Shown: piece after piece, positions 34,030 through 62,044 of the stretch
How the letters are laid out: each line of letters opens with the position of its first letter
Numbering within the stretch: position 1 is the first letter of the stretch
From: Flavobacterium ranwuense
GTDB lineage: Bacteria > Bacteroidota > Bacteroidia > Flavobacteriales > Flavobacteriaceae
Length of the DNA stretch: 64,000 nt
Direction of reading: 5' to 3'
NCBI RefSeq assembly: GCF_004349315.1
Contig: NZ_SMLH01000003.1
Location: forward strand, 310,001 to 374,000
Made by a program: the position numbers and the translations under genes
The notes under the pieces: model-generated
What the model was told of the DNA's origin: nothing
Databases searched by the model: none
Seen by the model: the letters and a program-made list of their open reading frames with translations, nothing else

Positions 34030-34145
34030 GTCATTGCGAGGAACGTGGCAATCAGGAGCTTTTCCTGCTTTACGTTTCAATCTTTTTTCGCTTAAAAAGC
34101 GAATAAAAGGATTTTCACTGCAATCAGGGCTAGGGCTTTATCGGT
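34030..34145 (+). repeat. Dispersed structured repeat, copy A
   Basis: This element starts GTCATTGCGAGG and continues with the conserved words GGCAATCAGGAGCT, TTCCTGCT and ATCTTTTTT. A local hairpin follows (TTCGCTT paired with AAGCGAA at about 34086-34102), then AAAAGGAT and CAATCAGGGCTAGGGC. Copies B (54240-54363, reverse) and C (61882-61944) share the same order of words with a different hairpin. It lies between folE and cysS, both on the minus strand, so it is transcribed in their leader or spacer. Confidence 0.75.
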
Positions 34146-54239: not shown

Positions 54240-54363
54240 AAATGCCCTAGCTCTGATGGAAGCGGTATCCTTTTTCTGGTTTTTTTGCCAGAAAAAGATA
54301 CAGCGAATAGCAGGAAACAGCTCCTGATTGCCACACAATTCGTTAGTCATTGTTCGCAATGAC
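54240..54363 (-). repeat. Dispersed structured repeat, copy B (reverse orientation)
   Basis: Read on the minus strand it starts GTCATTGCGAAC, then GGCAATCAGGAGCT, TTTCCTGCT, ATCTTTTTCTGG, a 12-bp hairpin (54267-54299), AAAAAGGAT, ACCGCTTCCATCAG and AGCTAGGGC. Copy A has the same word order with a different hairpin, which is good evidence for conserved structure. GTCATTG-TTCG-CAATGAC at 54346-54363 is itself a hairpin. Confidence 0.8.
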
Positions 54364-61767: not shown

Positions 61768-61881
61768 CGTAAATTACTTTTTTTCTTGATGTGCCATATG
61801 GCTTTTGTAAAAATACTATTTATTCAAAAACAAAGCCAACTATTCTTTAGGAGCACAAACTTTAGTTTATTAATCAACATT

Positions 61882-61944
61882 TGTCCCGCTTTCCGCTATA
61901 TCCTTGCCAAAAAAAGCGAGGGATGCCGCTTTAATCGGGGCTAA
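61882..61944 (+). repeat. Dispersed structured repeat, copy C (short)
   Basis: It starts TGTCCCGCTTTCCGCTATATCC, then a hairpin (CTTGC with GCGAG around a run of As), then GGGATGCCGCTTTAATCGGGGCTAA. The GGATGCCGCTT...ATC.GGGCTA end matches copies A and B; the 5' GTCATTGCGA part is missing. Confidence 0.65.
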
Positions 61945-62044
61945 ATAACAAAATTCTTCCTTATTTATTAACAACCAGAAGCAATATCAAATGATTTTTA
62001 AAATAAAATCGTAAATTGCAGGCTTAAATTATCATATTCATAAA

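Follow-up and report, generated by a model that had tools for sequence, protein, structure and literature searches.

What kind of element is it that recurs in the spacers between genes with a constant base and a hairpin that differs at every site, and what does it do there? This question is raised by copies A, B and C (Table 1), which lie in the 64-kb stretch of DNA analyzed here (the window). The initial annotation had described them as a dispersed structured family, and each copy was found where it had been placed. A cmscan search of the window matched all three to Rfam family RF01705 (Flavo-1) over model positions 1–76, with E-values of 1.3e-14 to 5.6e-10 (the gathering score of RF01705 is 42 bits), and we are nearly certain of this assignment. 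Flavo-1 is an already catalogued family with the Rfam type "Gene; sRNA". What is new relative to Rfam is the covariation test, the conserved G·A loops, the outer helix of a subclass, the fixed place and direction of copies, their compensated turnover and their hairpin dialects.

The reading we favor, at a probability of about 0.4, places Flavo-1 among the short REP/BOX/ERIC-type elements that are interspersed in intergenic DNA; it would act as a folded single strand and would not be a gene for one RNA. The copy number, the fold, its compensation and the fixed place and direction at shared sites are demonstrated below. Beyond these, we propose a protein that recognizes the folded single strand, which it would be more likely to meet as DNA or as a passing transcript than as a dedicated sRNA. 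If Flavo-1 is such an interspersed folded element, many Flavobacterium "sRNA genes" in databases are mislabelled, and the question shifts from the target of sRNA regulation to what binds the folded strand and maintains it at dozens of fixed sites. The extended fold (P1, P3 and two loop classes) and the structure-keeping turnover give a testable handle on that question.

Table 1. Flavo-1 copies and associated features in the window.
Feature	Position	Strand	Basis and remarks
REP-type palindrome GTCATTGCGAGG..GGCAATC	34030-34053	+	One of 23 places of TCATTGCGAGGNACG in the genome
Flavo-1 copy A	34057-34135	-	cmscan RF01705, 74.7 bits; class 1 body
Copy A apical hairpin, TTCGCTTTTTAAGCGAA
Copy A putative outer helix P1, 5' strand AGC	34129-34131	-	Sequence reading; could pair with 34057-34059
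Copy A putative outer helix P1, 3' strand GCT	34057-34059	-	Sequence reading; then CC at 34055-34056
Flavo-1 copy B	54245-54321	+	cmscan RF01705, 73.6 bits
REP-type palindrome variant by copy B, GTCATTGCGAACAATGAC...GGCAATC	54326-54363	-	Sequence reading
Flavo-1 copy C	61878-61946	-	cmscan RF01705, 57.8 bits; apical hairpin short

Membership, abundance and an adjoining palindrome

In alignments of A, B and C the hairpin arms vary between copies yet remain complementary, as had been claimed; for copy C, the alignment flags a single pair of the Rfam consensus as non-standard. Their intergenic location was likewise borne out: copy A lies between codirectional genes, in a short spacer that we take to separate cysS from folE, and copies B and C lie between divergent genes, upstream of what are presumably prfA and icmF, respectively. 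The shared word order stood in so far as Flavo-1 is common to all three copies, but the word GGCAATCAGGAGCT of A and B spans two elements, the second of which C lacks.

That second element, the part common to A and B (GTCATTGCGA...GGCAATC), is a palindrome unrelated to Flavo-1; beside copy A it forms a separate REP-type palindrome that abuts the copy and lies outside Flavo-1. By eye, we take it to resemble the CGTC-tagged REP class. Allowing 0–1 mismatch, TCATTGCGAGGNACG occurs at 23 places in the genome of the window and its reversed control at none. The word CATTGCGAG was found inside or within 80 nt of six of the 84 Flavo-1 copies of this genome, three times in the apical loop, compared with two matches in 292,560 bases of farther flank, although this comparison overstates the link to Flavo-1 because the farther flank is mostly coding. 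No CATTGCGAG was found by the Flavo-1 copies of the relatives G404 (0/50) and G206 (0/30). A GTCATTGCGAGGAACG..GCAATC palindrome sits in the apical loop of L051, L069 and L071.

The family extends well past three copies. The genome of the window (G000) has 90 matches at E ≤ 1e-3, with 84 over the family cut-off, and two complete relatives, G404 and G206, have 59 matches (55 over the cut-off) and 41 matches (34 over the cut-off), respectively. The initial annotation had made its reading depend on further copies in related genomes, and 57 of 395 genomes sampled from the phylum matched (46 over the cut-off). Among the rows listed, which omit 318 genomes without a match, all 24 Flavobacterium genomes matched, our own included, one of them with a single match, and 14 control genomes gave no Flavo-1 match. 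The nearest named genome by FolE was that of Flavobacterium rhamnosiphilum (100%), as reported by a tool that may omit the window's own genome. Copies below 42 bits (6 of the 90 in G000) were dropped from the dialect, flank, context, closest-pair and covariation analyses, and for the relatives we used 50 of the 59 copies in G404 and, out of 41 in G206, the 30 with the best scores.

Fold and covariation

Pairing was assessed with a parser that fixes the TAG, ATC, GAT and AG anchors only and leaves the tested pairs free; it returned 1 match in the reversed-sequence control vs 175. It parsed 50 of 84 copies in G000, 37 of 50 in G404 and 23 of 30 in G206 (34, 13 and 7 unparsed). At the four variable pairs, 194 of 200 cells in the parsed G000 copies were standard pairs (shuffle mean 128.7, maximum of 2000 shuffles 143), as were 142 of 148 in G404 (mean 94.7, maximum 108) and 89 of 92 in G206 (mean 66.4, maximum 75), so the covarying hairpin claimed from three copies holds for the family. 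Because the copies are separate sites of one genome, this covariation is not driven by shared species descent, although descent among copies may contribute. At two positions of the stem, each of the four Watson-Crick pairs occurs among the 158 distinct copies, orthologues included (TA 84, CG 49, AT 15 and GC 1 at the first; AT 74, GC 48, TA 26 and CG 5 at the second).

The main stem has two 3x3 internal loops of the form GNA/GNA with a free middle position. In class 1, the G·A and A·G positions on either side of this middle are conserved in 66 to 70 of 72 copies, and in class 2 the second loop is GRC/ANA, in which C·A (78 of 86 copies) takes the place of the class 1 A·G (67 of 72). Part of the coupling between loop class and stem length is built into the parser. 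The loop pattern suggests sheared pairing in the G·A loops. The first loop is GNA/GNA in 39/50 copies of G000, 37/37 of G404 and 22/23 of G206, which weighs against the idea that the palindromes have no function and are kept solely by template switching during replication (quasipalindrome correction), since that process would pair up the internal loops. We find this idea hardly credible, although it would account for the block change of an apical palindrome on an otherwise identical body (L248 vs L257, see below).

The fold of one subclass, whose members start GCGTGAGGGAT and end GGGTCACGCCC, is longer than that of the Rfam consensus, which leaves the outer bases unpaired. In 20 of 25 subclass copies from three genomes, five outer bases have an exact downstream complement, forming an outer helix (P1) in five versions: GCGTG/CACGC, GCGTT/AACGC, GCATG/CATGC, GCGTA/TACGC and GCACA/TGTGC. 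A given five-letter word would occur in such a tail by chance at a rate of about 1 in 8 (calculated by hand). The misses are L084, L086, L087, L093 and L330, and in L055, one of the 20, the position found is another AACGC. By eye, many subclass copies seem to hold a second hairpin, P3, between the main stem and P1. For the main class, we propose by analogy a three-pair P1, AGC/GCU.

Several observations distinguish the two strands. G·T pairs in the folded hairpins number 49 on the Rfam strand vs 17 on the opposite strand (orthologues included), and in parsed stems G·T stands to A·C as 10 to 2 in G000, 4 to 2 in G404 and 0 to 1 in G206. The preference for G·T over A·C is as compatible with RNA as with single-stranded DNA, and it shows no excess in the parsed stems of G206; both points count against our reading. 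When both strands are folded as RNA, it is the Rfam strand that folds lower in 120 of 164 copies.

According to the interspersed-element reading, one defined strand would fold into the main stem, interrupted by the two 3x3 loops with their closing G·A pairs, and would top out in a freely variable apical palindrome, with P1 as an outer helix in the subclass at least. In integrons, the attC sites act as a folded single strand whose base is conserved and whose apical part varies, and the Flavo-1 strand, with its conserved base and variable apex, may be likened to them by way of analogy.

Two further kinds of structural variation were seen. The internal loop can take up a side-stem module, TACTTCAC...TTGGAGTTCAGTGAA, which sits on the 5' side in L067, L078, L082 and L092 and on the 3' side in L095, L101 and L102. 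In G404, L322-L325 have a long apical domain in which a common core like AGAGCGACCGGAGGAAGCTCCT lies within variable complementary arms.

Shared sites and hairpin turnover

Flavo-1 copies keep their place and direction between genomes. Comparison of the 84 G000 copies with 50 of the 59 G404 copies gave 28 sites at which both flanks match and the two copies point the same way; at no two-flank site did they point in opposite directions. One-flank matches were seven in the same direction and one opposite, and the partner in the latter, L326, has a further match to another copy whose direction agrees. For 30 of the 41 G206 copies, two-flank sites were 8 same and 0 opposite with G000, and 8 and 0 with G404. 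At individual genes, 20 of the 30 prfA loci scanned in the genus had an upstream Flavo-1 by cmscan, all 20 in the same direction, and 13 of 30 folE loci had one, all 13 in one direction; the window's own loci are included, and each set consists of the best 30 matches from 61 genomes. The copies at shared sites look vertically inherited.

Loss also occurs, as the single site without an intact element in a 400-kb sample of G404 holds a relic. A simple pattern sorted 109 folE spacers (some genomes twice) into 40 with full Flavo-1, 6 with partial Flavo-1 and 63 without it; among the partials, at least L285 is an IVP spacer. In many relatives (L151, L148, L146, L278 and others) the folE-cysS spacer holds a four-helix gene of the 23S rRNA-IVP type instead of Flavo-1. 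This gene belongs to PF05635 (Pfam on the L151 protein only), is flanked by TTAATCGTTTAATC-like or TTTATTGTTTTTAG-like repeats and looks mobile. In L136, L137, L230 and L234 the same spacer holds another paired repeat, CCTCTCC..GGAGAGGG / CTCCCTTCCCTTTGGGGAGGG.

Letters within the stem change at shared sites, and they mostly change in pairs. Of 29 site pairs between G000 and G404 (28 two-flank and one one-flank), 16 parse on both arms and 13 do not. In the 96 pair cells of the former, 68 are unchanged, 22 have changed on both sides and still pair, 3 have changed on one side and still pair, and 3 are broken. The alternative that the initial annotation had raised, namely that the arms vary without compensation, is contradicted by the 22 of 28 changed pairs that altered both sides. 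Between G000 and G206 (5 of 8 site pairs parsed), 7 pairs changed, 6 on both sides and 1 on one side, all still paired and 0 broken, and between G404 and G206 (6 of 8 parsed) 11 changed, 8 on both sides and 1 on one side with pairing kept and 2 broken. Single steps of this kind are visible between close relatives: L132 and L222 (folE 97.9% identical) differ by one compensated pair in the apex, and L257 and L300 (folE 93.6%) by another. We propose that copies persist only with the fold intact, and that paired letters would for this reason drift in compensated steps.

Other features of the body are hardly remembered by the site. Loop class agrees in 10 of 21 shared-site pairs (null mean 10.4), and agreement is near chance at c10 (11, null 8.6), u14 (11, null 8.4) and position 18 (14, null 13.7); position 19 agrees more often (13 vs a null of 8.7, p 0.038 uncorrected).

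Larger changes are seen as well. L248 and L257 (folE 93.7%) agree in the body and almost agree in the 5' flank but carry different apical palindromes, and L225 and L232 have most of the body and the apex in common and differ by an added 3' module. Under the preferred interspersed-element reading, whole apical palindromes may be swapped, partly by other palindromes landing in the apex.

Apical hairpins also differ in character between genomes. Sharing of 7-mers was 0.180 within G000 (83 hairpins), 0.141 within G404 (47 hairpins) and 0.100 between them (p ≤ 0.001 by label permutation of within vs between for these two genomes only). The third genome, G206, which was sampled by best score, gives weaker support to such a dialect (0.292 within, 0.132 with G404 and 0.159 with G000). 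GTTYGGC-type apices occur in 2 of 83 hairpins in G000, 14 of 47 in G404 and 11 of 30 in G206, and CTTTAAA-type apices number 25, 2 and 5, respectively. Among 25 pairs of orthologous hairpins, 6 have a 7-mer in common, vs 0.10 of non-orthologous pairs, so some memory of the site remains.

The dialect pattern could be produced by common ancestry within a genome, by module copying or by a local sequence preference, each of which would suffice. A more specific proposal, which we consider speculative and unlikely, is that Flavo-1 sites are fixed addresses rewritten in place, where an activity that works on the folded single strand would copy apical modules from one non-allelic copy of a genome to another (structure-guided non-allelic conversion). 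If so, rewriting in place would yield a genome-specific hairpin dialect at shared sites while the place, direction and conserved base stay.

Genomic context, mobility and known systems

The position of Flavo-1 relative to genes bears on whether it acts on neighboring messages. In G000, 77 of the 84 copies overlap no called ORF of at least 70 codons, and these comprise 32 in tandem contexts antisense to the genes, 17 in tandem contexts in sense, 22 between divergent genes and 6 between convergent genes. Combining G000 with non-orthologous copies of G404 and G206, the Rfam strand in tandem contexts is antisense in 46 and sense in 24 (ORF-based; two-sided binomial p ~0.01), with 4 antisense and 5 sense in G206 alone. 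This count set aside ORF-overlapping copies (7/84, 6/50 and 7/30 in G000, G404 and G206) and largely removed orthologues, four G206 copies with a one-flank match being kept as non-orthologous. There is therefore no constant orientation to the downstream gene in these tandem contexts. In a published F. psychrophilum transcriptome, Flavo-1 matches lie sense, antisense and outside transcripts. The leader RNA or processing signal that had been suggested is unsupported as a general role, because the flanking tandem genes point both ways and the transcriptome matches are mixed.

The main rival to our reading, possible though doubtful in our view, is a cis-acting mRNA element, in which the hairpin, once transcribed, would stabilize the message, process it or attenuate it, and a local effect would be what preserves each copy. 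Such effects are reported for BIME, ERIC and Correia elements (PMC3049150). The rival draws support from the persistence of the fold at the same sites (those shared among G000, G404 and G206, and those at prfA and folE), from the position of copy A in a short spacer between codirectional genes, and from the genes that end towards the 3' side of the element, whose stop codon lies within 25 nt of it in 16 of 38 cases in G000, 11 of 25 in G404 and 3 of 10 in G206. That a structure lasts at a fixed site points to some benefit in cis, of which a passive repeat would have no need, and copy A is probably transcribed since the folE-cysS spacer leaves little room for a promoter; both points count against the interspersed-element reading. 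Against the cis-acting rival stand the excess of antisense over sense in tandem contexts, the 22 of 77 non-overlapping own copies between divergent genes, the matches outside transcribed regions in the F. psychrophilum transcriptome, and the lack, by eye, of a T-run after the hairpin in either direction. An intrinsic terminator was not seen on either strand: the sequence after the 3' end of the Rfam strand is A-rich (67/90 copies examined), and on the opposite strand the hairpin is followed by GGGCTA without a T-run (by eye).

A family of independent small RNA genes, as the Rfam type would have it, we judge quite unlikely. In its favor, the table of Weinberg et al. (2010; PMC2864571) gives Flavo-1 as RNA "y", cis-regulatory "n" and switch "n"; a 2022 review names it among the most abundant bacterial sRNAs with the function column blank; and the Rfam strand folds lower than its complement as RNA, as noted above. 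Such genes are difficult to reconcile with 84 diverged copies in a single genome, with the lack of a terminator-like T-run past the 3' end, or with the F. psychrophilum transcriptome data, which speak against a general sRNA gene. Nor was any constant promoter box or spacing found upstream: a TTTTGAAAA-like word occurs within 60 nt in 9/63, 3/42 and 7/26 copies, its distance from TAGCC being 15-25 nt in most. A minority, L351, L359 and L378 among them, have TTTTGAAAAC 15-25 nt ahead of TAGCC. The label "sRNA gene" is unsupported by direction or copy number here, and a search of the open-access literature found neither a stated function for Flavo-1 nor its description as an interspersed repeat.

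The suggestion that the element is MITE-like held in part. Flavo-1 is short, non-coding and dispersed in many intergenic copies (84 over the cut-off), but no clean insertion, target duplication or transposase or other enzyme linked to it was found among the divergent species compared, which also counts against the interspersed-element reading. Nor was there a recent identical copy pair within any one genome among the 84, 50/59 and 30/41 copies compared; the closest pair by length and identity, L208 and L210 at different sites in G404, is 90% identical over 175 nt, a likeness that takes in 27 nt upstream and about 45 nt downstream.

A non-autonomous element moved by an IS200/IS605-type (Y1) transposase in the style of REP/RAYT, with the single-stranded DNA hairpin as substrate, would fit the copy number, the size and the strand-specific folding, and of 24 Flavobacterium genomes selected because they carry Flavo-1, 21 had a Y1_Tnp (PF01797) match. 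We nevertheless regard this mechanism as very unlikely. Three of the 24 genomes (G084, G202 and G218) have no Y1_Tnp match, although weak RAYTs could be missed, and the PF01797 loci of the window's genome (L039-L042), with about 1.5 kb on each side, are not flanked by Flavo-1 or the CATTGCGA word, only a stray GATTGC word being found near them. The palindrome ends carry no GTAG or CGTC tag at the foot, the main class ending in TAGCCC / GCTCC (by eye). Replication polarity was not seen in G404, where the origin split that fitted best aligned 36 of the 59 copies (the 59 include four below the family cut-off) and 58% of 500 random strand sets did equally well; in 20 sampled stretches, GC skew largely tracked the gene strand. 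Also in G404, 420 kb (C1, 1573784-1993072), roughly opposite a dnaA-like gene at base 1, are without a listed Flavo-1 match.

Comparison with known repeats places Flavo-1 near, and outside, two described systems. Like pneumococcal BOX elements (PMC3049150), it is short, intergenic, present in many copies, able to form a stem-loop if transcribed, and modular with optional inserted modules. Unlike BOX, it has no boxA/B/C modules and is seldom found between convergent genes, where BOX is over-represented according to the same source (6/77 non-overlapping copies in G000, a raw count). With the REP/REPIN sequences associated with RAYTs (PMC3733652) it shares palindromic intergenic repeats, alternative complementary stem letters and G·T pairs; it differs from them in lacking the GTAG or CGTC tag, in its greater length, in its internal G·A loops and in not lying beside a Y1 gene here.

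Mobile DNA offers few copies, a further point against transposase-driven movement. BLAST of two phage and plasmid collections with one 88-nt query at E 1e-5 gave no match, a search in which diverged copies would be missed. In IMG/VR, two narrow patterns, which fit only 4 and 2 of the 84 own copies, found nothing, and two wider patterns, which jointly fit 38/84, 29/50 and 20/30 of the known copies in G000, G404 and G206, found four contigs, of which one carries a true Flavo-1. This sole confirmed copy (L380:471-557) lies on a 30-kb contig and perhaps in the host flank of a provirus.
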